Shown: positions 6,495 through 23,021 of the stretch, piece by piece
Numbering within the stretch: position 1 is the first letter of the stretch
Layout of the letters: each line of letters begins with the position of its first letter
Assembly (NCBI GenBank): GCA_030655775.1
Contig: JAUSPI010000114.1
Span: 1 to 36,540 of the forward strand
DNA: 36,540 nucleotides
Direction: 5' to 3'
DNA from: Syntrophales bacterium
GTDB lineage: Bacteria; Desulfobacterota; Syntrophia; Syntrophales; JADFWA01
Position numbers and translations under genes: made by a program
Notes under the pieces: model-generated
Database searches by the model: none
Seen by the model: only the letters and a program-made list of their open reading frames with translations
Told to the model about the DNA's origin: nothing

Positions 6495-6666
6495 CTATAA
6501 ATCTTCCGTATTTTAAAGCCCCATCGTTCAATTTTATTTAGAAGTACATAGCGAACGAATATAACAAGATTGTTCCTTACATTTCTCATATAAGCAAAAC
6601 AGGTTCAGGATTTTATATAGAGTGGAAAGGATGTGAACATATAAATTGAAAGTAGCGGATAAAAAT

Positions 6667-7131
6667 ATGCCAACAGAAGTACAAGAGATACTTCAAACTT
6701 ACGCTCAGCATCTTGACAGCATCATACCGATTTTACAGGGAGTGCAGGGAAAATTTGGATACATATCCGAAGACGCGGTGGAGTGCATCGCACAATACCT
6801 TGATGTCTCACAGAGCTATATTTACGGCGTGGCTACGTTTTATGCTCAATTCAGATTCACTCGCCCGGGCGACCACGTAATGTGTCTGTGCCGTGGAACC
6901 GCATGCCACGTCGGAGGTGCAGATCAGATACTCGAACAAGTTAAGAGAAACCTTGGCATCAAAGAAGGTGAAACGACCGATGACGGAAAATTTTCTCTCG
7001 AAACCGTAGCCTGCATAGGATGCTGTGTCCTGGCCCCCTGTATGACAATCGACCAGGAGGTGCACGGCCATTTAACTCCTCAAAAGGCAACAAAGATATT
7101 GAAGGTCATTAGCAAGGAGAAGAAGAAATGA
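6667..7131 (+). CDS. NuoE/HydC-like [2Fe-2S] subunit of bifurcating module 1
   Basis: A 154-residue thioredoxin-fold protein of the complex I 24-kDa family. The four [2Fe-2S] cysteines are present as CRGTAC and CIGCC near the C-terminus (C-x4-C and C-x3-C patterns); the helical N-terminal part with GYISEDAVECIAQYL and YGVATFYAQFRF is typical. In HydABC and StnABC complexes this subunit binds the NuoF-like flavoprotein. ATG at 6667 is chosen; an in-frame TTG at 6646 would add seven residues, but the nearest strong purine stretch (GGAAAGGA, 6624-6631) is 14 nt before that TTG and is followed by a closed ATG-TGA. Its stop codon overlaps the ATG of the next gene by 4 nt, indicating translational coupling. 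Confidence 0.9.
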   Translation: MPTEVQEILQTYAQHLDSIIPILQGVQGKFGYISEDAVECIAQYLDVSQSYIYGVATFYAQFRFTRPGDHVMCLCRGTACHVGGADQILEQVKRNLGIKEGETTDDGKFSLETVACIGCCVLAPCMTIDQEVHGHLTPQKATKILKVISKEKKK

Positions 7132-8987
7132 CGGGTTCAAATGACAATGGCCGCACTGTTCTTGTTTGCCTGGGGACGGGTTGTGTATCTTCGGGATCTA
7201 TTGATATTTACGGTGCTATCGAAGCGGAAGTTAAGAAGGCCGGCCTCGAGGGAATCAACGTGAAATTCACGGGCTGTCACGGTTTTTGCCAGAGAGGCCC
7301 TATAGTTATCATAGAACCTGAAGGCGTTTTCTACTCGGCAGTGAAGGAAAAGGATGTCCCCGAAATTGTCGAGTCTCACCTGAAGAACAATAAGCCGGTT
7401 GAACACCTGTTTTATCGTGATCCCGTAGCAGACGAGCCGGTCAAATGCTACAAGGATATTCCTTTTTACGCGGGACAGGAACGCATAGTCCTGAAAAATT
7501 GCGGCCACATCAACCCGGAGGTAATCGAGGATTCTATTAACGCAGGGGTGTATCGGATGACCGAAAAAGTCCTCCATGAAATGACCCCGGAAGATGTTAT
7601 TGAGACGATAAAAAAGTCGGGACTTCGTGGAAGAGGTGGTGCCGGTTTCCCAGCGGCCATAAAATGGAAGTTTTGCCGAGACGAGAAAGCCGATCAGAAG
7701 TATATAATCTGTAATGCGGATGAAGGAGACCCCGGTGCATTTATGGACGGGTTTATTCTGGAAGCTAACCCGCATCAGGTTATAGAGGGAATGATCATCG
7801 CAGGCTACGCCATAGGTGCAACGAAAGGCTTTATTTATGTACGTGCGGAGTATCCCCTGGCTGTTAAGCGCCTTTACATCGCCGTATCGCAAGCCAGGGA
7901 GCGTGGATTCTTAGGCGACAACATCGCGGGCAGCGATTTCAGCTTCGATTTGAAAATATTCCAGGGTGCAGGAGCTTTTGTGTGCGGAGAGGAGACCGGG
8001 TTGATAGCTTCTATCGAAGGATCCAGAGGGATGCCTCGTACACGTCCCCCTTTCCCCGCGCAGAGGGGGTTGTGGGGCAGGCCGACCATAATCAATAACG
8101 TAAAAACCCTATCATACATTCCTGAAATCATTAATAAAGGGGCAGACTGGTTTGCCGGTATCGGCACTGAAAAAAGTCCCGGCACTGCGGTCTTTGCCCT
8201 CACCGGAAAAGTGGCAAATAGCGGTTTGATAGAAGTTCCAATGGGGACGACCCTTCGCGAAATAATATTCGTAATCGGCGGAGGCATCCCGGACGGCAAA
8301 AAATTTAAGGCGGTACAGACCGGTGGCCCGTCCGGCGGCTGCATTCCCTCTGAATTCCTCGATATGAAGGTGGATTTTGATGAGCTTGCAAAAGTCGGCT
8401 CAATCATGGGTTCAGGCGGTATGGTTGTTATGGACGAGGATTCCTGTATGGTTGATATCGCACGATACTTCCTCTCATTTACGGAAGATGAATCCTGCGG
8501 CAAATGCACTCCATGCAGAATGGGGACACAGCACGTGCTTCGCATCCTGAACGACATCACAGAAGGTAATGGCAAGCCGGAGGATATCGACACGCTGGAG
8601 AAATTGTGCAGAACTATCAAAGATACCTCGCTTTGCGGGCTCGGTCAGACGGCCCCCAACCCGGTACTTACAACTATCGAGCATTTCCGGGACGAATACG
8701 AGGCCCACATCAATGAGGGACGATGTCCGGCCCTTGCATGCAAAGCGTTGTTGACATATGCCATTGATGCCGAAACGTGCAAGTCGTGCGGTCTCTGCAA
8801 GAAAGACTGCCCGACTGATGCGATTACAGGTTCTGTTAAACCGCCGGAGGCTTTTGTCATCCACGAAGAAAAATGTATACGCTGCGGTATGTGCTTTAGT
8901 GTATGTCCCTTTGGTTCGGTACAAAAAAGTTCCGGCAACGGGGAAACACAAGTCCGGAAAAGCGGGAGCAAAAACAATAATGAGTGA
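7128..8987 (+). CDS. NuoF/HydB-like NADH-binding FMN Fe-S flavoprotein, module 1
   Basis: The 619-residue protein has the HydB/StnB layout. It starts with a thioredoxin-like [2Fe-2S] domain (C14, C19, C50, C54). The complex I 51-kDa FMN/NADH domain follows (LRGRGGAGFPAAIKW, CNADEGDPGAFMD, GAFVCGEETGLI), then SLBB, a [4Fe-4S] motif ESCGKCTPCRMGT, and a C-terminal two-cluster ferredoxin (CKSCGLCKKDC and CIRCGMCFSVC). In characterised relatives this subunit carries the FMN where NADH and ferredoxin electrons are coupled. The extra C-terminal ferredoxin separates it from plain respiratory NuoF. It overlaps the next gene by 8 nt. Confidence 0.94.
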   Translation: MTGSNDNGRTVLVCLGTGCVSSGSIDIYGAIEAEVKKAGLEGINVKFTGCHGFCQRGPIVIIEPEGVFYSAVKEKDVPEIVESHLKNNKPVEHLFYRDPVADEPVKCYKDIPFYAGQERIVLKNCGHINPEVIEDSINAGVYRMTEKVLHEMTPEDVIETIKKSGLRGRGGAGFPAAIKWKFCRDEKADQKYIICNADEGDPGAFMDGFILEANPHQVIEGMIIAGYAIGATKGFIYVRAEYPLAVKRLYIAVSQARERGFLGDNIAGSDFSFDLKIFQGAGAFVCGEETGLIASIEGSRGMPRTRPPFPAQRGLWGRPTIINNVKTLSYIPEIINKGADWFAGIGTEKSPGTAVFALTGKVANSGLIEVPMGTTLREIIFVIGGGIPDGKKFKAVQTGGPSGGCIPSEFLDMKVDFDELAKVGSIMGSGGMVVMDEDSCMVDIARYFLSFTEDESCGKCTPCRMGTQHVLRILNDITEGNGKPEDIDTLEKLCRTIKDTSLCGLGQTAPNPVLTTIEHFRDEYEAHINEGRCPALACKALLTYAIDAETCKSCGLCKKDCPTDAITGSVKPPEAFVIHEEKCIRCGMCFSVCPFGSVQKSSGNGETQVRKSGSKNNNE

Positions 8988-11478
8988 GATAATACTTACA
9001 ATAGATGGAAAAGAAGTAAAAGCCGAGAAAGGCGATACGGTACTCGAGGCTGCCCGGAAAGCAAAAATCGAAATCCCCACTCTTTGCGCACACCCGGCCC
9101 TCGAGCCATACGGGGCCTGCCGTTTGTGTATTGTCGAAATCGAAGGGATGCGGGGATATCCAACCTCATGCACGACACCCGCAACAGATGGTATGGTTGT
9201 CAAAACAAAAACGCCCGATATCATTGCTCTCCGCAGGGAAGTAATAAAGCTGATGTTGAGCGGCCACACCAGCCCATGCCTTGCCTGTAATCACCGCGAG
9301 TTGTGTGAGAAGTACCGGCCGCTTCCCTTTAAGACAGGCAAAGCCACACGCTGCATTTTTTGCAGCAATCTGGATAATTGCGAACTGAGAAAGCTCGCTG
9401 ATGAATACCAGATCAACGAATTCGAAGTACCGATAATTTACAGGAATCTGGAGATTGAACGGAACGACCCGTTTATGGACAGGGATTACAATCTCTGTGT
9501 ACTTTGCGGTCGGTGTGCCCGCATCTGCGAAAAGATACATAAAAAAGGCACGATCGATTTTATCAACCGAGGCAAGGATGCTCGCATCGGGACGGCATTC
9601 CACAGGGATCACACTGAAACGGATTGCCAGTTTTGCGGTGCGTGCATTGATATCTGCCCGACAGGCGCGCTGTCTGACAGGTTTGCAAAATGGTGCGGGG
9701 CCGCGGATAAGACAGAAGACTCCACATGCGTGGTCTGCCCTCATGGATGTTCAATCAGCCTGAAGCTCAAGAATGGGCGGGTGATCGGGTCAGGGATGAC
9801 AGAGTTTACAAGAGAGGCCCGTATTTGTGCGGTGGGGCGGTTCGTGCTACCGCAGCTTTTGGACAACCCTTTGAGGATGGTTTCGCACCAGGTGCGTATC
9901 GAAGACGGTCTGATAAAGACAATATATGAGGATGCGATTGCCATGGCTGCGGAAAAACTTGGGGCCTACTCGGGAGAACAGTTTGCCCTTATTGCCAATT
10001 CGGCGGCCACCCGTGAGGAGATTTATATACTGAAGAAATTTGCAAAAGAAGTTATGAAATCTGACAACTTTGCTGTTGCTACAGCCGACGGCGAAAACCT
10101 TGCAATAGAACCCGGCCAGGTGGCCGAAGCCATAGAAAAAGGAGCTGTCAAGGCCCTTTACTCGGCCGGCAATTATCTTGAACCGGCTGTGCTCCAAAGG
10201 CTTGAGATAATTGTTGTATCCGACATGTTTTCTTCCGAAACAGAAAAAGCGGCGGATGTTGTGATCGCGGCTGCAACACTTGCCGAAACTGACGGTACTT
10301 TCCTCACCTCATCCGGAGAGATTAAAATACTTGCTGCCGCGGCTATATCCCCTGAGGGTCTGTTCCCGGACTGGAAGATTGTCTGCGATATTGCTCAAAA
10401 GATGGGTGCTTCCGGGTTCGATTTCGAATCCGCGGCCGATATTAACAAAGAATTGAGTGAAAAGAGTGTGGTTTACGATGTGCCGGTATCACCCGATCCG
10501 TCACCCCTCGATGATGTTGCTGCCCTGCCACGTTTTTACAGGGGGCACAGGCTTGCCGACATCGTCTATGCACTCAAGAGCCTTGTTCCGGAGGAAACCG
10601 AAGAAAAATCAACAGAAGAGAAGATTGTAGAAGAGCGACCATTCAAAATTGTTGAAAAGGTAGAAATTGTGCCTAATACCCATATGATCACGGTACACGC
10701 GCCGGTGATTGCAGAAAAGTGTCAACCCGGCCAGTTTGTTATAGCAATGGTGAACGAAAAATCTGAGCGTATCCCTTACACCATATCGGACTTTGACCGC
10801 AAAGAGGGCACCATTACAATCGTGATTCTTGAAGTTGGCAGATCGAGCCGCGAGATGGCGAACACACGCTCCGGCGAATATCTCGCACACCTTGCCGGGC
10901 CGCTCGGAATGCCGGTCGAGGTTAAAAAATACGGCACGGTTGTCTGCGCCGGTGGTTGTTATGGTGTTGGTGCAATACTTCCCATTGCCCGTGCAATGAA
11001 AGAAGCCGGCAACAGGGTAATCTGCATCGAGGAAGCATCGAGCCATTACCTGCTCCACTGGCAGGACAGGCTTTCCCAAAACTGCGACGAATTGATTATT
11101 GTTACAAAAGACGGCTCCGCAGGAATGAAGGGTGGTGTGCAGGAGGTAATTTCGATGCTGGTTGACAGAGGAGAAAAGATAGATCAGTCGTACGTCATCG
11201 GGTGTACGTTTATGATGATGCTCGTCTCTGAAGTCGCCAGGGAACATGATATCCCGACTCAAACCGCGATGAACTCGCTCATGCTTGACGGTACGGGGAT
11301 GTGCGGGGCATGCCGTGTCAGTGTCGGGGAGGATACTAAATTTGCGTGTGTGAATGGCCCGTTTCTGGACGGGCTGAAGATCAACTGGATTGAACTCATA
11401 CAGAGGCAGGCCGCATTCAAAAAGGAAGAGGTCGAGGCCTTGCCCCAGGAGCCGTTCAAGATGTACAACCACCGCTAA
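8980..11478 (+). CDS. NuoG-like Fe-S protein fused to NfnA-type FAD/NAD reductase
   Basis: The 832-residue protein starts at ATG 8980, overlapping the previous gene. Residues 1-~75 form a [2Fe-2S] domain (C36, C47, C50, C64). A His-Cys cluster motif follows (H96, C100, C103, C109), then three further cysteines (C125, C128, C134), two ferredoxin motifs (C173-C183 and C216-C226), and a NuoG/molybdopterin-type [4Fe-4S] site (C250, C253, C257, C283). A shortened molybdopterin-like domain runs to ~535. After an acidic linker (EETEEKSTEEK) residues ~554-832 are a full-length NfnA/SudB ferredoxin-NADP reductase domain: RIPYT FAD motif, CAGGCYGVGAILP nucleotide loop and GTGMCGAC...FACVNGP for a [2Fe-2S] cluster. 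The fusion wires the NuoEF pair to an Nfn-type reductase. Molybdopterin binding seems unlikely given the short domain. Confidence 0.9.
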   Translation: MSEIILTIDGKEVKAEKGDTVLEAARKAKIEIPTLCAHPALEPYGACRLCIVEIEGMRGYPTSCTTPATDGMVVKTKTPDIIALRREVIKLMLSGHTSPCLACNHRELCEKYRPLPFKTGKATRCIFCSNLDNCELRKLADEYQINEFEVPIIYRNLEIERNDPFMDRDYNLCVLCGRCARICEKIHKKGTIDFINRGKDARIGTAFHRDHTETDCQFCGACIDICPTGALSDRFAKWCGAADKTEDSTCVVCPHGCSISLKLKNGRVIGSGMTEFTREARICAVGRFVLPQLLDNPLRMVSHQVRIEDGLIKTIYEDAIAMAAEKLGAYSGEQFALIANSAATREEIYILKKFAKEVMKSDNFAVATADGENLAIEPGQVAEAIEKGAVKALYSAGNYLEPAVLQRLEIIVVSDMFSSETEKAADVVIAAATLAETDGTFLTSSGEIKILAAAAISPEGLFPDWKIVCDIAQKMGASGFDFESAADINKELSEKSVVYDVPVSPDPSPLDDVAALPRFYRGHRLADIVYALKSLVPEETEEKSTEEKIVEERPFKIVEKVEIVPNTHMITVHAPVIAEKCQPGQFVIAMVNEKSERIPYTISDFDRKEGTITIVILEVGRSSREMANTRSGEYLAHLAGPLGMPVEVKKYGTVVCAGGCYGVGAILPIARAMKEAGNRVICIEEASSHYLLHWQDRLSQNCDELIIVTKDGSAGMKGGVQEVISMLVDRGEKIDQSYVIGCTFMMMLVSEVAREHDIPTQTAMNSLMLDGTGMCGACRVSVGEDTKFACVNGPFLDGLKINWIELIQRQAAFKKEEVEALPQEPFKMYNHR

Positions 11479-11498
11479 AATAAATATCAGGAATTGAC

Positions 11499-12923
11499 AT
11501 GGACCCTAAGGAAAGAAAAAAGATTCCCAGGCAGAAGATGCCTGAACAGGACCCGAAAAGACGAAAGCATAATTTTGAGGAAGTGCCATACGGCTTCACT
11601 GAAGAACTCGCCGTGATGGAAGCAAAGCGCTGCATCCAATGCAAGAAACCGCTTTGCATAACAGGTTGTCCCGTGAACATAGATATCCCGGCCTTCATCA
11701 GTCTCATCGAAGAGGGTAAATTTATTGAGGCGGCGTGGAAGCTCAAGGAACAGAATGCGTTGCCTGCCGTCACCGGGCGCGTGTGTCCGCAGGAGACCCA
11801 GTGCGAGATCAAGTGCATCCTCGGCAAGAAGGGTGAGCCGGTGGCTATTGGACGCCTCGAGAGGTTTGCCGCTGATTACGAGCGGAAGGCCGGTAAGATC
11901 AAAATACCTGAGATCGCTGAGCCGACAGGTAAAAAGATAGCCATCATCGGGGCGGGGCCTGCGGGGCTCACCGTTGCAGGTGATCTTATCAAATTAGGAC
12001 ATAGTGTCACGATCTTCGAAGCACTTCACGAAACAGGCGGGGTCTTGGTATACGGCATCCCCGAATTCCGCCTGCCCAAAGAAATAGTAAAGTTCGAGAT
12101 CGATTATCTGAAAAAACTCGGCGTTGAGATCATCATGGATTACGTGGTCGGGAAAGCACGCACCGTAGATGAGCTTTTAAGCAGCGGTTACGATGCGGTA
12201 TTTATCGGAACCGGCGCCGGCCTACCCATGTTTATGGACATACCCGGTGAAAACCTTGTGGGCGTCTATTCGGCAAATGAGTATCTCACCAGATCGAACC
12301 TGATGAAATCATTCAGGTTTCCCGAGTACGGCACTGTACCTATCAGGAGCAAGAAAACCGTTACTATAGGTGGCGGCAACGTTGCAATGGACTCGGCCCG
12401 GACTGCTGTGCGAAGCGGGGCGGAATCCGTAATAGTCTACAGGCGAAGCCGTGAGGAGATGCCGGCACGGGACGAGGAAATCCACCACGCCGAGGAAGAA
12501 GGCATTGAATTTCAACTTCTCACCAATCCGGTTCAAATCATCGGCGACGCAGAAGGCAGGGTAAAAGCCGTGGAGTGTATAAAGATGGAACTGGGGGAGC
12601 CGGACGACTCCGGACGCCGCAGGTCGGCACCCGTCGAGGGCAGCGAGTTTATTATTGAATGTGATACGGTTATTCCCGCGCTCGGCAACCTTCCAAATCC
12701 GCTTATTCCAATGACCACGCCGGATCTTAAGACTACCCGCTGGGGCACATTGGAGTGTGATCCGGACACGCTCGAAACTTCCAAAGAGGGCGTTTTCGCG
12801 GGTGGTGATATCGTAACGGGGGCTGCCACGGTGATTTCCGCAATGGGCGCCGGAAAAACTGCTGCTGCGAGCATTCACGAATATATCATGACAGGAAAAG
12901 TTACCAAACCCCAGAAAGCATAG
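11499..12923 (+). CDS. NfnB/SudA-like NADPH-dependent flavoprotein (GltD homologue)
   Basis: A 474-residue relative of the glutamate synthase small subunit and of NfnB. Residues 1-110 bind two [4Fe-4S] clusters (C45, C48, C53, C57; then C96, Glu99, C102, C106; a Glu ligand is known in NfnB). FAD is bound by IIGAGPAGLTV (~146-156), NADPH by TIGGGNVAMDSART and the arginines of YRRSREEMPAR, and a second FAD segment GVFAGGDIVTGAATV completes the fold. A true GltD role is less likely because no GltB lies beside it and the gene before it encodes the NfnA domain. With that partner it should oxidise or reduce NADPH. It is the last gene of the operon, 20 nt after the fusion gene. Confidence 0.92.
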   Translation: MDPKERKKIPRQKMPEQDPKRRKHNFEEVPYGFTEELAVMEAKRCIQCKKPLCITGCPVNIDIPAFISLIEEGKFIEAAWKLKEQNALPAVTGRVCPQETQCEIKCILGKKGEPVAIGRLERFAADYERKAGKIKIPEIAEPTGKKIAIIGAGPAGLTVAGDLIKLGHSVTIFEALHETGGVLVYGIPEFRLPKEIVKFEIDYLKKLGVEIIMDYVVGKARTVDELLSSGYDAVFIGTGAGLPMFMDIPGENLVGVYSANEYLTRSNLMKSFRFPEYGTVPIRSKKTVTIGGGNVAMDSARTAVRSGAESVIVYRRSREEMPARDEEIHHAEEEGIEFQLLTNPVQIIGDAEGRVKAVECIKMELGEPDDSGRRRSAPVEGSEFIIECDTVIPALGNLPNPLIPMTTPDLKTTRWGTLECDPDTLETSKEGVFAGGDIVTGAATVISAMGAGKTAAASIHEYIMTGKVTKPQKA

Positions 12924-14835: not shown

Positions 14836-15987
14836 ATGAGGATGCTGATGGTAGACGACCAATTATCACAATCCACCGAAGTGGCGTTACGTGAGCGAGT
14901 CAAAGAGCTAACATGTCTTTACGGGATTTCTCAGATAGCCGGACAGCTTGGCATATCCTTGGAAGAAATTCTTCAACGAATAGTCGAAATTATCCCACCC
15001 GCATGGCACTATCCCGAAACAGCTTTCGCGAGAATAATCTTGGATGGAACTTCCTACACGACCCACGGCTTCCGTGATTGCCGCCAAAAGCAGACGGCTG
15101 AGATAATTGTGGATGGTGTGCCAAGAGGTGCTGTTGAGCTGGTTTATGTAGAGGAAAAACCCGATCTTGATGAGGGTCCATTTCTCAAGGAAGAACGTAA
15201 ACTGATTGATGCAGTGGCCGGCCAGGTGGCACGTATTATCGAACGCAAGCAGGCAGAGAAGGACAGAACAAAGCTCCACGATCAACTGAGACATGCTGAC
15301 CGACTGGCTACCATCGGGATGCTTGCGGCAGGTGTAGCCCATGAGCTCAATGAACCTCTGGGGAATATTCTTGGGTTTGCCCAATTGGCACAGAAGTGCC
15401 CCGGGATTCCGGCTTCAGCCGGGCAGGACATTCAAAAAATCGAAACCGCTTCTTTGCACGCACGGGAGATTATCCGGAAGCTCCTGGTTTTTGCTCGACA
15501 GGCACCACCTCAGAAGACAAGGGTCAACCTCAATCAGGTGGTGGAAGACGGCCTTTATTTTTTCGAATCTCGGTGCAGCAAGGAAGGTATAGAACTTGTT
15601 CGTCTGCTTTCCCCGAACCTGCCGGAAGTCACAGCTGATCCGGCGCAATTGAACCAGGTCCTGGCCAATTTGGTTACCAATGCCTTGCAGTCAATGCCGG
15701 GAACAGGCAGGATCATGGTTCAGACACAATTTCACGACCGCAACGTTTATCTTATCGTGAAAGATACGGGGACCGGTATGAGCGAGGATGTCCTCGATAA
15801 AATATTCATTCCATTCTTCACGACTAAGGACCTTGGCCAGGGAACTGGTTTAGGTATGCCTGTAGTATATGGGATTGTTACCGCCAATGGCGGTTCGATT
15901 AATGTTAAGAGCAAACCCGGCTTCGGTACCCGGTTCGAGATTCGATTGCCGGTGGCAGAGCTGGAAGACACGGAGGAAAGTGCTTAA
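14836..15987 (+). CDS. Cytosolic sensor histidine kinase (NtrB-like)
   Basis: The 383-residue protein lacks membrane segments. Residues ~20-140 look like a GAF-type sensory domain, followed by a short coiled linker, the HisKA dimerisation domain with phospho-acceptor His169 (AAGVAHELNEPLGNI), and an HATPase domain with an N-box (LANLVTNALQSM), a G1 box (DTGTGMSEDVLDKIFIPFF) and a G2 box (GQGTGLGMPVVYGI). It should autophosphorylate and pass phosphate to the downstream regulator, whose start is 2 nt beyond this stop. ATG 14836 has only a weak ribosome site; ATG 14848 is an alternative. The ligand is unknown; the cytosolic location suggests an internal metabolic or redox cue. Confidence 0.9.
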   Translation: MRMLMVDDQLSQSTEVALRERVKELTCLYGISQIAGQLGISLEEILQRIVEIIPPAWHYPETAFARIILDGTSYTTHGFRDCRQKQTAEIIVDGVPRGAVELVYVEEKPDLDEGPFLKEERKLIDAVAGQVARIIERKQAEKDRTKLHDQLRHADRLATIGMLAAGVAHELNEPLGNILGFAQLAQKCPGIPASAGQDIQKIETASLHAREIIRKLLVFARQAPPQKTRVNLNQVVEDGLYFFESRCSKEGIELVRLLSPNLPEVTADPAQLNQVLANLVTNALQSMPGTGRIMVQTQFHDRNVYLIVKDTGTGMSEDVLDKIFIPFFTTKDLGQGTGLGMPVVYGIVTANGGSINVKSKPGFGTRFEIRLPVAELEDTEESA

Positions 15988-15988
15988 T

Positions 15989-17341
15989 ATGACGTCTTTT
16001 GCCAGGAAAGAACGCATTTTGATAGTGGATGATTCTGTAAACACACTGGAGGTTTTACAGCGAAATCTGACAGTAGCGGGCTATCAGGCTTTCACGGCAC
16101 CCGGCGTGTCCGAAGCGATCGCAACTCTTGGGACAACACAATTTGATCTGGTCATTACTGACTTCAAAATGCCTAAGGTTAATGGTCTCGACCTGGTGAT
16201 GCATATCAGAGAAAACTTTAAAGACACTGAAGTAATGATGATTACCGGCTATCCGTCAATTGAAGGAGCAGTCGAGGCGGTCAAGGCCGGCGCTGAAGAG
16301 TTTTTACCCAAACCCTTTACTGATACTGAGCTTCTATCTGCTGTTCAGCGTGTGCTTGATAAAGGAAGGCTGCGAAGGCTTGGAAATACCGTACCGAAAC
16401 GGGCGATCCCTGTGCATAAAGGCCTCATAGGGACATCGAAGGCAATGCATAAAATTTCTATAGCCATAAGCAAGGCCTCATCCTCTTCGGCTACGGTTCT
16501 TGTTACAGGGGAAAGCGGTACAGGCAAGGAGCTTGTAGCAAGAGCTATTCACTATGGCAGCACACGACCCTCTTCGCCGTTTGTGCCGGTAAACTGTGGG
16601 GGTATTCCTGAAGGCCTGCTTGAAAGCGAATTGTTTGGGCATGTAAAGGGGGCCTTTACCGGGGCAATCGAATCGAGAGCAGGGTTCTTTCATACTGCCG
16701 ACGGAGGTACGATCTTTCTCGATGAAATCAGCGAAATGAGTCTGTCCATGCAGGTAAAGCTTCTTCGCGTACTTCAGGATAAACAAATTTGCATGGTTGG
16801 TTCCGACCGAACACGGAAAGTTGATGTAAGGATTCTGGCTGCAACAAACAAAGATTTGCACGGTTTAGTGAAAAAGGGACTTTTTCGGGAAGATCTGTTT
16901 TACCGCCTCAATGTTATTACCATATCTATCCCGCCGTTGAGAGAAAGAGCCAATGATATAATATTGTTAGCACGTCATTTTGCAAACAGGTTTGCAGCCG
17001 AATTGGGCAGGTCGCCACGTCGTTTTTCTGATAAGGCCCTGCAAAGTCTTCGAAACTATAATTGGCCGGGAAATATAAGAGAATTAGAGAATGTGATCCA
17101 GCGCCTTGTTGTGATGACCGACGGTAATCTAATAGACGTTCCCGATTTACCTTCTCTTATGCGTTTCTCAGCCCTTCGTGAAACGGGATTCACCCGAACC
17201 CTCGCTGAAGTGGAAAGCGAGTACATTAAAAATGTCCTGGCAAGTGTGGACGGTAATAAAACCCGGGCCGCGGAAATCCTCGGCATCGACCGCAAACCCC
17301 TACGTGAAAAGCTCAAAAAGGCCGATCAGCCTTCGCCCTGA
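15989..17341 (+). CDS. NtrC-family sigma-54-dependent response regulator
   Basis: A 450-residue enhancer-binding activator. ATG 15989 follows GAGGAAAG (15973-15980) by 8 nt and starts 2 nt after the kinase stop; a longer in-frame extension into the kinase gene is rejected. The receiver domain (~8-122) has the acidic pair ILIVDD, phospho-acceptor Asp58 in LVITDFKMP and the conserved Lys in LPKPF. The AAA+ domain has Walker A GESGTGKE, an intact sigma-54 contact loop GAFTGA and Walker B TIFLDEI. A Fis-type helix-turn-helix (NKTRAAEILGIDRKPLREKL) ends the protein. A sigma-54 promoter lies about 220 nt downstream, ahead of the GltS-like operon, which is its likely target. Confidence 0.94.
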   Translation: MTSFARKERILIVDDSVNTLEVLQRNLTVAGYQAFTAPGVSEAIATLGTTQFDLVITDFKMPKVNGLDLVMHIRENFKDTEVMMITGYPSIEGAVEAVKAGAEEFLPKPFTDTELLSAVQRVLDKGRLRRLGNTVPKRAIPVHKGLIGTSKAMHKISIAISKASSSSATVLVTGESGTGKELVARAIHYGSTRPSSPFVPVNCGGIPEGLLESELFGHVKGAFTGAIESRAGFFHTADGGTIFLDEISEMSLSMQVKLLRVLQDKQICMVGSDRTRKVDVRILAATNKDLHGLVKKGLFREDLFYRLNVITISIPPLRERANDIILLARHFANRFAAELGRSPRRFSDKALQSLRNYNWPGNIRELENVIQRLVVMTDGNLIDVPDLPSLMRFSALRETGFTRTLAEVESEYIKNVLASVDGNKTRAAEILGIDRKPLREKLKKADQPSP

Positions 17342-17563: not shown

Positions 17564-17579
17564 TGGTATGATTTTTGCT
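17564..17579 (+). promoter_or_regulatory. Sigma-54 (-24/-12) promoter of the GltS-like operon
   Basis: TGGTATGATTTTTGCT matches the TGGCAC-N5-TTGCW consensus with GG at 17565-17566 and GC at 17577-17578, the exact 12-nt spacing. Only two positions of the -24 block differ. It is 44 nt upstream of the first start codon, giving a ~30-nt leader. The preceding 220 nt could hold enhancer sites, though the only paired element I see is a weak GCCGCCGG/CCGGTGGT near 17355-17382. Confidence 0.75.
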
Positions 17580-17622
17580 CAACCGTCAGATGTTCACGAA
17601 ACGCAGAGTAAAGGAGCCGACA

Positions 17623-17907
17623 ATGTCAGAAAACTTAAGACGCCTTGGACTTTGTATGACCTGCAATAATGCCCCGGACTGTATGTTTAAGCTGCCTAAC
17701 AAACCGGTCTTGTATTGCGAAGAGTTTGAAATTGACAGCGGCCCTTCGGTAGAGACCGCCGAACAAACCACGCCAGTAACTTATTCATTCGATGCTGAAA
17801 AAGAGTCATTAAAGTCTATGGGACTTTGCTGCAACTGCGAAAACCTAAAAACCTGTGGTTTTCCAAAACCTGAAGGCGGTGTTTGGCATTGCGAGGAGTA
17901 CCGATAA
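17623..17907 (+). CDS. Small tandem Cys-repeat protein (2 x CX2CX5CX11C)
   Basis: A 94-residue protein with two units of identical cysteine spacing: C11, C14, C20, C32 and C69, C72, C78, C90. Each unit reads LGLCxxCxNxxxC...CEEF/Y, so it looks like an internal duplication. Four cysteines per unit could bind one zinc or iron ion or an Fe-S cluster each. ATG 17623 follows AAGGAG by 6 nt. It is the first gene behind the sigma-54 promoter and ends 1 nt before the NuoE-like start, so it is very likely an accessory part, assembly factor or small electron carrier of this complex. I know no named family for it. Confidence 0.8.
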   Translation: MSENLRRLGLCMTCNNAPDCMFKLPNKPVLYCEEFEIDSGPSVETAEQTTPVTYSFDAEKESLKSMGLCCNCENLKTCGFPKPEGGVWHCEEYR

Positions 17908-17908
17908 A

Positions 17909-18799
17909 ATGAAACAAGACACTGCTATCTTGAACAGAGACAATATCTATGCGGAAGGAGAGATAGATTCGAAAGATATTTTAAGAATCCTGGAAAAGTA
18001 CGACCAGAACAGAGGCGGCCTTGTCGCTATCCTTGAAGAGATCCAGAGCAAATACGGTTATCTTCCTGAAACGGCGCTTAGAATAGTGAGCGAAAGGACC
18101 AGCCGTTCCCTGGTTGATATATATGGTGTCGCAACATTTTACAGGTTTTTTAGCTTGAAGCCTAAAGGTAAGCATCTTAGCTGTGTGTGTCTCGGCACTG
18201 CCTGCCACGTTCGGGGGGCACAAGGGGTTGTAGAGGAATTTGAGCAGCAACTCGGTATTAAAGCAGGCCAGACAACCGAAGATCAGGAATTTACACTGGA
18301 AACGGTAAATTGTTTAGGTGCCTGTGCTCTCGGCCCGGTGGTTGTTATTGATGGCCATTACTTTTCAAAAGTAGAAAGATCGAAAGTAAAACAACTGTTA
18401 GATCAAGGACGAAAAGGACTTGACAAGCTTGACATAGAAAAAGACGAGCGGATATTCCCTATCGACGTAAGATGTCCTCATTGCAACCAGAGTTTCAAGG
18501 ATGAGACTTTTATCATCGACGGCTATCCCTCACTCAAGATAAACGCTGCCATGGATCACAAGCAGGGCTGGATAAGAATGTCGAGTCTGTATGGTAGTTA
18601 TAATGTTTGCACTGAGCATGAAATTCCCGAAGATATGGTTGTTAGTTTTATTTGTCCGCATTGTGATTCGGAAATTCCAAGCACGTCGACTTGTTCGGAA
18701 TGCGAGGCGCCGATGATGCCAATGCCCGTTGAGGGTGGCGGTAGAATTAAAATTTGTGCACGACAGGGATGTAAAAACCGTATGTTGGATTTGGTTTAG
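17909..18799 (+). CDS. NuoE/HydC-like [2Fe-2S] subunit with C-terminal zinc-ribbon tail, module 2
   Basis: Of 296 residues, ~20-170 are a complete NuoE-like domain (YGVATFYRFF; [2Fe-2S] cysteines C94, C99, C135, C139). Residues ~175-296 are an extra domain rich in paired cysteines: CPHC (189-192), CPHC (249-252), CSEC (262-265) and CARQGC (283-288), suggesting two zinc-ribbon or rubredoxin-like sites. The usual subunit has about 155-180 residues, as in the paralogue at 6667. The tail may dock the neighbouring Cys-rich subunits or carry metal. ATG is 1 nt after the previous stop. Confidence 0.9.
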   Translation: MKQDTAILNRDNIYAEGEIDSKDILRILEKYDQNRGGLVAILEEIQSKYGYLPETALRIVSERTSRSLVDIYGVATFYRFFSLKPKGKHLSCVCLGTACHVRGAQGVVEEFEQQLGIKAGQTTEDQEFTLETVNCLGACALGPVVVIDGHYFSKVERSKVKQLLDQGRKGLDKLDIEKDERIFPIDVRCPHCNQSFKDETFIIDGYPSLKINAAMDHKQGWIRMSSLYGSYNVCTEHEIPEDMVVSFICPHCDSEIPSTSTCSECEAPMMPMPVEGGGRIKICARQGCKNRMLDLV

Positions 18800-18802
18800 A
18801 TT

Positions 18803-20710
18803 ATGAAACGAATGGGCGAGAATGGTTATGTGAAGCAATCGTTTGTGCAAGACACTGAAACGCTACGACTGTCTTCTGTAAGTGAGCTGAAAGAATTACG
18901 CAGTATACTTTTTGAAACCTTGGATGAAAACAAACCGCGCTTGGTGATTTGTGGTGGAACAGCTTGTCACGCAAGCGGCTCAAGCGGCATTATTCGAGTC
19001 GTAAAGAAATACATCATTGAAAAACGCCTGGTGGACAAAGTGGCGCTGAGGATTACCGGATGCCATGGATTCTGTGAGATGGGACCTTTTATTCTCACTG
19101 AGCCGCAACAGGCATTCTACGTACAAGTGGGACTCAGTGATGTTCCAAGGATTGTCGAGGCGTTGCTCTCGGACAAATACGTCGAAGACCTTCTCTGTCG
19201 GGATTCTAATACGGGCGAAAAATATTACAATCGTGACGATATTCCTTTCTTCAAGTATCAGCAACGTAGCATTTTAGGTCTGAACGAAAAGATAGACCCA
19301 ATTAGGATATACGATTACATCGTTCAGGGAGGGTACAGTGTTCTGGAGGATGTATTTTCGAAGCAAAATGCCGACTGGATAGTTCAGCAGGTTAAACGTT
19401 CTGGATTGCGCGGACGCGGTGGTGCTGGATTTCCTGCAGGGCTGAAATGGGAGATGCTGGCAAAACAATCCAGCGACGAAGGCAAATTTCTCGTCTGCAA
19501 TGCTGATGAAGGTGACCCTGGCGCCTATATGGACCGTAGCGTGCTTGAGGGCAATCCACACAGTATTATCGAAGGAATGGTCATTGGCGCTTATGGTACT
19601 CGGGCAACCGAAGGCATAGTGTATGTTCGAAATGAATATCCTCTTGCCGTTAAGCATTTGAAGATAGCTTTAAAACAGGCACAGGAACTGGGCCTTCTGG
19701 GTGACAATATACTTGGAACCGGTTTTTCATTTGACATCAAAATTGTCATAGGTGCCGGTGCATTTGTATGCGGTGAAGAAACGGCGCTGATACGGTCTAT
19801 CGAAGGGAAATTAGGTGAACCGCGTCAACGGCCGCCGTTCCCTGTTCAAAAAGGTATTGACGGTAAACCAACCGTAATTAACAACGTTGAAACCTGGGCA
19901 AATATCCCCTTAATTTTCAAATCAGGTGCGGATAAATTCGCAACGGTCGGGACTGAGAATAATACGGGCACAAAAATATTCAGCCTGGTCGGCAAAATCA
20001 AAAATACCGGTCTTGTCGAAGTACCCATGGGTATAACCGTCAAGGAAATAGTCTATGACATCGGTGGTGGGGCCGCAGGCAAGGCGGAACTTAAAGCGGT
20101 TCAGACAGGCGGCCCGTCCGGTGGTTGTATCCCCGCAAATATGTTCGACGTTTCTGTTGACTACGAAAGTTTGGCAGAGGTGGGATCAATTATGGGCTCC
20201 GGCGGTATGATTGTAATGGACGAAAATACCTGCATGGTTGATATCGCCAAATATTTTATGAATTTTCTCAAAGACGAGTCCTGTGGCAAATGTTTTACCT
20301 GCCGTAAAGGCACGCAGAGGATGTATGAGATTCTCGACGATATCTCAAACGGCAATGGATCACTTGAGCACATGGATCTTCTCAAAGAATTAGCAGAAGT
20401 GGTTAAGGATACGACGATGTGCGGTCTGGGACAAACCGCGTCGAATCCTGTTCTCTCTACTCTACGATATTTTACGGATGAATACATCGAACATATCGAA
20501 AAGAAGCATTGCCCTGCCGGAGTATGTAAGGCACTCATTACTTTCTCGATTAATGAAAACTGTGTGGGATGCCAGGTTTGTATCAAAGCCTGTCCAGAGG
20601 GGGCGATTACGGGAGAAAAGAAACAACGGCATGTTATCGATACCACCAAGTGCGTTAAATGCGGGGCATGCAGAAGTGTATGCAAAGTTGAAGCTGTGGA
20701 TGTTGTATAG
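18803..20710 (+). CDS. NuoF/HydB-like NADH-binding FMN Fe-S flavoprotein, module 2
   Basis: The 635-residue paralogue of the protein at 7128 has the same layout. The N-terminal [2Fe-2S] domain has C50, C55, C87 and C91. The FMN/NADH domain carries LRGRGGAGFPAGLKW, CNADEGDPGAYMD and GAFVCGEETALI. SLBB and a [4Fe-4S] motif ESCGKCFTCRKGT follow, and the protein ends in a two-cluster ferredoxin (CVGCQVCIKAC, CVKCGACRSVC). It is expected to oxidise or reduce NADH and exchange electrons with ferredoxin through its Fe-S chain. ATG 18803 starts 3 nt after the previous stop; ATG 18812 is an alternative start. Confidence 0.94.
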   Translation: MKRMGENGYVKQSFVQDTETLRLSSVSELKELRSILFETLDENKPRLVICGGTACHASGSSGIIRVVKKYIIEKRLVDKVALRITGCHGFCEMGPFILTEPQQAFYVQVGLSDVPRIVEALLSDKYVEDLLCRDSNTGEKYYNRDDIPFFKYQQRSILGLNEKIDPIRIYDYIVQGGYSVLEDVFSKQNADWIVQQVKRSGLRGRGGAGFPAGLKWEMLAKQSSDEGKFLVCNADEGDPGAYMDRSVLEGNPHSIIEGMVIGAYGTRATEGIVYVRNEYPLAVKHLKIALKQAQELGLLGDNILGTGFSFDIKIVIGAGAFVCGEETALIRSIEGKLGEPRQRPPFPVQKGIDGKPTVINNVETWANIPLIFKSGADKFATVGTENNTGTKIFSLVGKIKNTGLVEVPMGITVKEIVYDIGGGAAGKAELKAVQTGGPSGGCIPANMFDVSVDYESLAEVGSIMGSGGMIVMDENTCMVDIAKYFMNFLKDESCGKCFTCRKGTQRMYEILDDISNGNGSLEHMDLLKELAEVVKDTTMCGLGQTASNPVLSTLRYFTDEYIEHIEKKHCPAGVCKALITFSINENCVGCQVCIKACPEGAITGEKKQRHVIDTTKCVKCGACRSVCKVEAVDVV

Positions 20711-20725
20711 CTTTTTGAAAGGATA

Positions 20726-21406
20726 ATGATGATCAATCTTACTATAAACGGGCTGAATGTTGCAGTTGCGAAAGGCACTACCCTGCTCGAAGCGGCTAAG
20801 TTTTTGGGATTTCCGATTCCTACACTGTGTCACATGGAAGGTCTGTCGCCTTATGGTGCCTGCCGGTTGTGTATGGTGGAGATTGGAGAGGGGCCGAGAG
20901 CAAAATTGGTCTCCTCATGCACGTACCCGGCCGAGGAAGGGCTTAAAGTGCGAACAACGTCATCAAGGGTCCTTCGGGCACGCAAAATGATTCTGGAACT
21001 GCTGCTCGCTTCCTGTCCTCAATCCAAAACAATCCAGGACCTTGCTTCGGCACACGGTATTCGCCGGCAGCGTTTCAAGCAGGAGCACGAGGATTGCATC
21101 CTCTGCGGGCTTTGCGTCCGTACGTGCGAAGAGCAGATGATGGCAAAGGCCATCGGTTTTAGAAGCCGTGGCGAGAATAGAAGTATAGGCACACCGTTTG
21201 ATGCTAAATCGGATGTTTGCCGGCTATGTGGCGCTTGTATGTATGTATGTCCGGCCTGTCAGCTTCGATGTACTTACAACGAACCGGAAAAAGCAATTTG
21301 TGGAGGCTGCGCGAATCTGACCCCGCCATGCATCGAGAAAGAACAGTTTGACGATATGATGTGCTACATGGATCCCTGTGTGGCTTGTGAGATAAAGAAA
21401 GATTAA
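20726..21406 (+). CDS. Short HydA/NuoG-N-like Fe-S adaptor with extra C-terminal cysteines
   Basis: A 226-residue subunit with a [2Fe-2S] domain (C35, C46, C49, C65) and two [4Fe-4S] motifs (C124, C127, C130, C134; C165, C168, C171, C175). The His-Cys cluster motif found between these in HydA, HoxU and NuoG is absent; only C97 is there. No hydrogenase or molybdopterin domain follows. Instead the last 50 residues hold eight more cysteines (178, 182, 192, 195, 202, 213, 218, 221), enough for one or two more clusters. GAAAGGA (20717-20723) precedes ATG 20726; ATG 20729 is equally possible. It probably links the NuoEF pair to the FMN protein downstream. Confidence 0.88.
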   Translation: MMINLTINGLNVAVAKGTTLLEAAKFLGFPIPTLCHMEGLSPYGACRLCMVEIGEGPRAKLVSSCTYPAEEGLKVRTTSSRVLRARKMILELLLASCPQSKTIQDLASAHGIRRQRFKQEHEDCILCGLCVRTCEEQMMAKAIGFRSRGENRSIGTPFDAKSDVCRLCGACMYVCPACQLRCTYNEPEKAICGGCANLTPPCIEKEQFDDMMCYMDPCVACEIKKD

Positions 21407-21431
21407 CAAAAATAAAAAGGAGCAAAATAAA

Positions 21432-23021
21432 ATGGCACCTACGTTTTCGAAGGTAAACGCTTCGGCGGCGACTTTGACTAAAAACAGGACGGAAGGCTCG
21501 GTTGTTCCGGCTTCAGGTATGTGTGTTACCTGCGTTGATGGCTGCATAGGTATGTGCGAAATAGGCAAGAGTGCTTATCGGGGGCATGAAGTGATTTACC
21601 CGCAGCCGTTCGGAGTAATAACAACCGCCGCTGAGAAAACCTACCCGGTGGACTATTCGCACTTCAATATAATGGGAACCGTTGTTGGCGCCCAGGGGAT
21701 AGAGGCTGACAGCGATAAGGCTATCTTCCCCGCCGTTAACCTGGAAGTTGCCTTTGGTCATGATAACGGTATAAAGTTCCGTTATCCATGGATCATTCCC
21801 GGTATCGGTTCTACGAATATTGCCAAGAACAACTGGGAAGGTCTGGCTATCGGCTCCGCTTTGGCAGGAACCGGCCTGACTATTGGCGAGAATGTTGTTG
21901 GTATGGACCCCGAGTCTGTTTTTAAAGATGGTCGGGTGGTTGATACTGTCGACCTTAAACGTCGCGTTAAGCTCTATACAGATTACCAGCGGGACGGCTA
22001 CGGTGCAATCATTGTGCAGGCGAACGTTGAGGATACCCGGCTTAGCGTACAGGAATATGCAATCGAAAAACTTGGTGCCGAATGTGTGGAACTCAAATGG
22101 GGTCAGGGAGCCAAGGATATCGGCGGAGAAGTCAAAATCGGGGATATCAAAAAGGCACAACTGCTCCAGGAGCGCGGCTATATAGTGCTGCCGAATCCGA
22201 CAGACCCGGTTGTGATTAAAGCTTTTGAGAGGGGGGCTTTCAAGGAGTTTGAGCGGCATTCACGGGTAGGCATGGTGACTGAGGAATCATTTGCCAAACG
22301 GGTTGAAGAATTACGCAGTGCCGGGGCTAAATACATCTTCCTCAAAACCGGTGCCTATCGCCCGGCAGATCTGGCGAGGGCGGTTCTTTTTGCTACCAGA
22401 TATAAACTCGACCTTTTAACAGTCGATGGTGCGGGCGGCGGGACCGGCATGAGTCCCTGGCGTATGATGAATGAGTGGGGTATGCCTCCTGTTGAATTAC
22501 ACTCGCTTCTGTATCAATACGCCAAACGTCTTGCCGATAAGGGTGAACAAGTGCCTGCTCTGGCTCTGGCCGGCGGTTTTACCTTTGAAGACCAGATCTT
22601 CAAAGGACTTGCCCTTGGCGCTCCATTCGTGAAGCTCATAGGAATGGCCAGAGCCCCGATAGCCGCGGCGATGGTTGGTAAAACAATCGGACGTACAATT
22701 GATGAACACCAGATTCCGGTGTACATCGAGCGTTTTGGCAGTTCGAGAGACGATATATTTGTGACGGCAAGTCATCTGCGCACGGAATTAGGAGACGATG
22801 AATTCGAAAAACTTCCGGCTGGTGCTCTGGGGCTTTACACCTACTACGAGCGTCTTGCCCAGGGCTTGTCCCAGTTTCTGGCCGGCAGCCGAAAATTCGC
22901 TCTCAAATATATATCACGAGATGATATAGCAGCCCTGACACATAAGGCGGCAGACATCAGCGGGATTCAACACTTGATGGATGTGGATCGAGAAGAGGCT
23001 GAAAGAATTCTCGACAGTTGA
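21432..23021 (+). CDS. FMN-binding glutamate synthase-like protein (GltB central domain)
   Basis: The 529-residue protein matches the FMN/2-iminoglutarate domain of glutamate synthase (PF01645): LLTVDGAGGGTGMSPW, ALAGGFTFEDQIFKGLALGAPFVKLIGMAR. It lacks the glutaminase domain and the cysteine triplet that binds the 3Fe-4S cluster in GltB. A cysteine motif at the N-terminus (C31, C34, C38, C42; CVTCVDGCIGMC) may bind a [4Fe-4S] cluster instead. It is the last gene of the sigma-54 operon. Possible activities include ammonia-dependent glutamate formation or another FMN reaction; methylamine-glutamate methyltransferase subunits share the fold, so the substrate is open. A ribosome site AAAAGGAG lies 11 nt upstream. 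Confidence 0.88.
   Translation: MAPTFSKVNASAATLTKNRTEGSVVPASGMCVTCVDGCIGMCEIGKSAYRGHEVIYPQPFGVITTAAEKTYPVDYSHFNIMGTVVGAQGIEADSDKAIFPAVNLEVAFGHDNGIKFRYPWIIPGIGSTNIAKNNWEGLAIGSALAGTGLTIGENVVGMDPESVFKDGRVVDTVDLKRRVKLYTDYQRDGYGAIIVQANVEDTRLSVQEYAIEKLGAECVELKWGQGAKDIGGEVKIGDIKKAQLLQERGYIVLPNPTDPVVIKAFERGAFKEFERHSRVGMVTEESFAKRVEELRSAGAKYIFLKTGAYRPADLARAVLFATRYKLDLLTVDGAGGGTGMSPWRMMNEWGMPPVELHSLLYQYAKRLADKGEQVPALALAGGFTFEDQIFKGLALGAPFVKLIGMARAPIAAAMVGKTIGRTIDEHQIPVYIERFGSSRDDIFVTASHLRTELGDDEFEKLPAGALGLYTYYERLAQGLSQFLAGSRKFALKYISRDDIAALTHKAADISGIQHLMDVDREEAERILDS

Follow-up and report, generated by a model that had tools for sequence, protein, structure and literature searches.

A two-unit cysteine protein linked to glutamate enzymes and to a sigma-54 two-component system across at least nine phyla

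Introduction

The window analyzed here, a stretch of 36,540 nucleotides from a Syntrophales bacterium, holds a short gene whose product carries two cysteine-rich units and which directly precedes genes for NuoE-, NuoF-, NuoG- and GltB-like subunits. What such a protein does beside these enzymes is the question that the locus raises. An earlier note, made from the sequence, had placed the gene first in a sigma-54 operon and proposed a new small metal-binding subunit or an assembly factor linked to NuoE and NuoF.

Organization of the operon

The locus comprises the following features:

14836..15987, + strand: histidine kinase of the linked two-component system (HisKA, HATPase_c), conserved upstream in homologous loci
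15989..17341, + strand: sigma-54-dependent response regulator of the same system (Response_reg, Sigma54_activat, HTH_8), likewise conserved upstream
17564..17579, + strand: sigma-54 (-24/-12) promoter-like site TGGTATGATTTTTGCT with GG-N10-GC spacing
17610..17616, + strand: ribosome-binding site aaaggag, read from the sequence before the ATG of the 94-aa protein
17623..17907, + strand: small two-unit cysteine protein, 94 aa, gene 1 of the operon (translated open reading frame)
17647..17724, + strand: unit 1, GLC-X2-C-X5-C-X11-CEE, residues 9-34 (translation, spacing count, alignment)
17821..17898, + strand: unit 2, GLC-X2-C-X5-C-X11-CEE, residues 67-92, the best-conserved part, with KPEGGVWHCEEY (translation, spacing count, alignment)
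17909..18799, + strand: NuoE-like subunit (BfuC/HydC-like; PF01257 E=8.8e-48) with a C-terminal, Zn-ribbon-like beta extension that has eight conserved cysteines
18803..20710, + strand: NuoF-like subunit (BfuB-like), with an N-terminal 2Fe-2S domain, FMN/NADH domain, SLBB, NADH_4Fe-4S and a C-terminal 2x4Fe-4S domain (domain search)
20726..21406, + strand: short NuoG/HoxU-like Fe-S subunit (BfuA-like), 226 aa (PF13510 E=2e-16, 4Fe-4S domains)
21432..23021, + strand: GltB-like FMN subunit, 529 aa, with a remote glutamate-synthase domain (PF01645 E=9.9e-14) and an N-terminal CX2CX3CX3C

The start of the response regulator was placed at the ATG two bases past the kinase stop. As NuoE starts one base past the stop of the small gene, and the later genes follow at gaps of 3, 15 and 25 bases, the small gene is the first in a compact operon, and the upstream site at 17564-17579 bears out its earlier assignment to a sigma-54 operon. 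Comparable GG-N10-GC sites lie upstream of 32 of the 38 homologous copies, each with a score that no more than 5% of shuffled sequences attained (hand-weighted score, with mononucleotide shuffles as control). At one homologous locus (L016) a downstream open reading frame scores as sigma-54 itself, and at another (L017) a downstream frame resembles, by eye, a homologue of it.

As regards the descent of the operon, its NuoF groups with copies from Sedimentisphaerales (77-79% identity), and copies from the window's own order stand apart (61-62%). This suggests, on a quick tree with taxonomy as in the submitters' titles, that the operon at 17623-23021 was acquired by horizontal transfer. A mis-binned contig was considered and dismissed: the contig also carries MnmG, present as a single copy, at 86-87% identity to the gene in same-family genomes.

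The cysteine units and their conservation

Translation confirmed the open reading frame and both CX2CX5CX11C units, with cysteines at C11/C14/C20/C32 and C69/C72/C78/C90, each unit in a GLC...CEE frame and ending, in the window copy, in CEEF and CEEY, respectively. All eight cysteines are invariant across 40 aligned homologues at a mean column identity of 41%, so the pattern is well beyond chance, and the linker between the units is free to vary. The exact repetition of the spacing, to which attention had first been drawn, holds in the window copy but not elsewhere: spacing counts among the homologues came to 45 for CX2CX5CX11C and 37 for CX2CX5CX12C, the longer form belonging to unit 1, which mostly has it, and the shorter being that of unit 2. 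The identity of the two spacings is an accident of the window copy. Unit 2, with a near-invariant KPEGGVWHCEEY at its end, is far more conserved than unit 1, and thus the two are not equivalent. Metal binding through the cysteine tetrads is putative, with the invariant cysteines as indirect evidence. An AlphaFold model made with the 40 homologues was uninformative (pLDDT 54.6, pTM 0.18); such low confidence is what a metal-ordered mini-domain might be expected to give, but lends no support to one.

Searches of Pfam, NCBIfam, PHROGs and the PDB with single sequences and profiles recovered no credible family match for the 94-aa protein. One of 23 family members gave an isolated match to zf-A20 (E=0.00038), and a likeness to the C-terminus of Zur (GLCxxC; the best PDB match at E=0.2, and also E=0.02) was dismissed as chance. 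The match to a known, unrelated zinc domain family that would have told against the earlier proposal was therefore not seen in Pfam or NCBIfam across the members, and judged by these searches the protein represents an unnamed family, new to the databases searched. Like zinc ribbons and rubredoxin knuckles it has four cysteines per unit and a CX2C turn; unlike them, with their two CX2C(-like) knuckles per site, it has one CX2C per unit. It also recalls the Fe-S accessory subunits of glycyl radical enzymes (BSS beta/gamma, HPAD gamma, MASS beta/gamma; PMC12358834), small cysteine-tetrad proteins which attach to a larger enzyme without forming its catalytic center. However, MASS beta has a HiPIP-type spacing of CX2CX15CX34C (Cys32/35/51/86; PMC12358834) as against CX2CX5CX11C here, and the PDB searches gave no sequence or profile match to these subunits, so that we treat the likeness as an analogy only.

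Genomic neighborhoods and fusions

Among the 33 loci with the small protein in our genome_contigs set, the gene runs into NuoE-NuoF-NuoG-GltB in 23, is followed by glutamate dehydrogenase on a contig with no NuoE in five, by the dehydrogenase and then NuoE in three, and in one the unit is itself fused to glutamate dehydrogenase with NuoE next; in the last the contig ends past the small gene. Every contig that extends beyond the gene thus enters glutamate metabolism. A sigma-54 activator lies upstream in 29 of the 33, the other four having less than about 0.83 kb of upstream sequence. The order of histidine kinase/sigma-54 activator pair, small gene and glutamate enzyme is constant across at least nine phyla, the record titles naming Planctomycetota, Zixibacteria, WOR-3, Myxococcota, Thermodesulfobacteriota, Bacteroidota, Gemmatimonadota, Acidobacteriota, Cloacimonadota and Aminicenantes. 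Homologues scattered without a link to such operons, the other finding that would have spoken against the earlier proposal, were not seen among these loci.

Natural fusions point to the likely binding partners of the protein. Two units lie N-terminal to NuoE in L004 and L057 and one in L019 and L011; a unit lies C-terminal to NuoE in L012 and L021; and in L038 one unit is N-terminal to glutamate dehydrogenase, the NuoE of that locus being short. All of these fusions are to enzymes, and none among them is to a kinase or an activator.

The NuoEFG-GltB enzyme

In the NuoE of the window the eight conserved cysteines lie in an extension of about 130 residues at the C-terminus, which is predicted with a pLDDT above 90 to form a beta domain. 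The closest solved relatives of this NuoE are bifurcating HydC proteins, and the top matches of a fold search span only about 150 columns, corresponding to the NuoE domain, none covering the extension. The extension is present in every aligned NuoE from loci with a stand-alone small protein and missing from the NuoE of sister operons that lack it; it is the likely contact for the small protein on NuoE.

The core domains of electron-bifurcating Bfu (HydABC-type) enzymes, with HydABC, StnABC and NfnABC as solved relatives, are defined in PMC9304861, and the NuoE, NuoF and short NuoG of the operon match BfuC, BfuB and BfuA of that definition in domain content. In NuoF, PF01512, PF10589 and Fer4 score above cut-off and SLBB (E=2.8e-5) falls slightly short of its curated cut-off. 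For these BfuB domains we take the Pfam and InterPro entries to be equivalent. NuoE has the 2Fe-2S thioredoxin-like domain of BfuC, with HydC structures as its top matches, and the 226-aa subunit combines 2Fe-2S (PF13510) and 4Fe-4S (Fer4_7) domains, as in BfuA. The window operon differs from Bfu enzymes in the extra eight-cysteine extension and in its GltB-like FMN partner: in the part of the survey's text available to us (PMC9304861) glutamate synthase and this combination go without mention, and none of the Bfu types described is reported with such a small protein. NuoEFG-GltB may thus be described as an oxidoreductase built like the bifurcating Bfu enzymes, bifurcation itself being a prediction.

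PF01645 matches no protein of the genome but the GltB-like subunit. This subunit shares the region with canonical glutamate synthase (GltBD), and many homologues of the operon have a NuoF fused to a GltD-like domain; however, the PF01645 match covers only 122 of its residues, it has no relative in the PDB by single sequence or profile, and by eye the usual [3Fe-4S] cysteine motif of glutamate synthase is not seen in it. A canonical glutamine-dependent glutamate synthase was ruled out, there being no GATase_2 (glutamine amidotransferase) domain in the window's genome; the subunit may use ammonia, or act on a different substrate.

In the window NuoF (18803-20710) ends in a ferredoxin domain with two clusters, but many homologues (e.g. 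L009, 9241-12483) end in a GltD-like FAD domain instead, a difference that in domain terms reads as a swapped electron-entry domain. Elsewhere in the window (6646-12923) lies a second NuoE-NuoF-NuoG cluster, the last gene of which encodes a GltA-type subunit (TIGR01316 E=2e-185); since its NuoG-like protein has, by eye, an NfnA-like C-terminus, the cluster resembles an Stn/Nfn-Bfu transhydrogenase.

Co-occurrence with GltB and glutamate dehydrogenase

In the window's phylum the small protein occurs in 24 of 395 genomes and a GltB relative in 198. All 20 genomes with a GltB at least 80% identical to that of the window have the small protein, and about 175 of the 395, with only a more distant GltB, have none, bar fragmented or weak cases. 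The four carriers without a close GltB are G216, where the one unit present is weak, and a further three, G230, G253 and G405, the loci of which lie near contig ends. Three sister NuoEFG-GltB operons (68% GltB identity) have a short NuoE and no small protein, and no linked kinase or activator in the stretch read.

A single-unit profile found units at the small-protein locus only, both in the window's own genome and in 16 whole genomes, the latter with one marginal partial match (E=0.005). Phylum-wide, the only other notable unit is that of G216 (E=3.8e-6), beside a stand-alone transhydrogenase PntB domain. At L133 (4491-5276) a single-unit relative (GLCLNCDDRHIC...VYCESYI) directly precedes a stand-alone PntB NADP-binding domain (PF02233 E=1.1e-33).

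Three genomes (G444, G448 and G454, metagenome-assembled and possibly incomplete) have the small protein and the dehydrogenase with neither GltB nor an extended, Zn-ribbon-bearing NuoE, which argues against an obligate tie of the protein to Nuo. In G452 a GltB of 70% identity lies elsewhere in the genome and the NuoE matches are short only. Separately, a GltB relative without the small protein (L127, 6693-10568) lies near what by eye is a glutamine synthetase-like gene, a neighborhood in keeping with a nitrogen role.

Discussion

Conservation, linkage, fusions and promoter are directly observed for the small protein. To account for them we propose, with a probability of roughly one half for the whole, a metal-binding accessory part of a glutamate module under sigma-54 and two-component control, acting by docking and switching. 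Each unit would fold around one metal center (Zn2+ or an Fe-S cluster) with four cysteine ligands; the two would dock on an enzyme that interconverts 2-oxoglutarate and glutamate, which would be glutamate dehydrogenase in some lineages and, through the NuoE arm, NuoEFG-GltB in the window; and the protein would tether or switch this enzyme by metal or redox state while carrying no substrate electrons. It is probably, that is, a docking or control part of glutamate-forming or -degrading enzymes rather than an electron carrier.

Glutamate dehydrogenase works by direct hydride transfer, with no metal or flavin and no external electrons. Since the unit is fused to one, an electron-carrier role is argued against, and docking or regulation appears likelier than a part in electron transfer or in the assembly of Fe-S clusters. 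The partners of the unit appear to share a substrate (glutamate, on which GltB is predicted to act) and NAD(P)H rather than cofactors, and docking or switching is the simplest role common to both. The predicted metal-binding subunit of the earlier note hence keeps its invariant cysteine tetrads, its want of a known family and its link to one type of operon, but not NuoE/NuoF as sole partner: a dehydrogenase next in line at five loci, one fusion and three genomes without GltB and extended NuoE make that link too narrow.

Adjacency and fusion fit subunit and regulator alike, and the least unlikely of the alternatives is a metal or redox sensor that regulates the linked kinase and activator and so feeds back on the transcription of its own operon. 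The pair is as constant a neighbor as the enzyme, being found before the small gene at nearly every locus where the contig reaches far enough, and the small gene, with its -24/-12 site, is the first to be transcribed; a signaling role keeps a low probability, but the fusions seen are to enzymes, none of them to kinase or activator. We rank about level with it, and likewise hold unlikely, an Fe-S subunit of NuoEFG-GltB in which two small clusters would form an electron path linking the NuoE/F arm with GltB or with a partner outside the complex. An operon rich in Fe-S subunits, the fusions to NuoE and the occurrence of CX2CX5C in Fe-S loops would suit it, yet the unit is also fused to or paired with a dehydrogenase that uses no one-electron carrier, the protein is present in genomes without GltB, and sister NuoEFG-GltB operons do without it.

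These sister operons also weigh against an assembly or metal-delivery factor for NuoE and NuoF, which a small, cysteine-rich protein co-transcribed with Fe-S subunits could be; glutamate dehydrogenase, moreover, contains no cofactor that would need assembly, and the unit is nonetheless fused to it or found beside it. The assembly role of the earlier note thus leaves the dehydrogenase loci, the fusion and the GltB-less genomes unexplained, and we deem it improbable. To a stand-alone zinc store, or an unrelated small zinc protein sharing the operon by chance, we give hardly any credence: the lack of a known fold or family would permit it, but strict co-occurrence, a gene order conserved over phyla and fusions to enzymes do not look like chance.

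The protein represents an unnamed family whose genomic role is sharply delimited across at least nine phyla, which opens its function to study by few experiments. The protein also marks a type of NuoEFG-GltB operon that goes without mention in the available part of the published Bfu survey (PMC9304861). Our literature searches for a module joining a cysteine-unit protein to glutamate enzymes returned nothing on point, and the literature searched held no description of a cysteine-knuckle partner that controls glutamate metabolism at the level of the enzymes. As a speculation, and a rather doubtful one, the unit could be a movable docking module that senses metal or redox state and places glutamate dehydrogenase and a bifurcation-type NuoEFG-GltB under one switch, coupling glutamate formation in anaerobes to the state of NADH and ferredoxin. 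The composition of these operons suggests that in anaerobes glutamate chemistry may run on a mixture of NADH and ferredoxin electrons.
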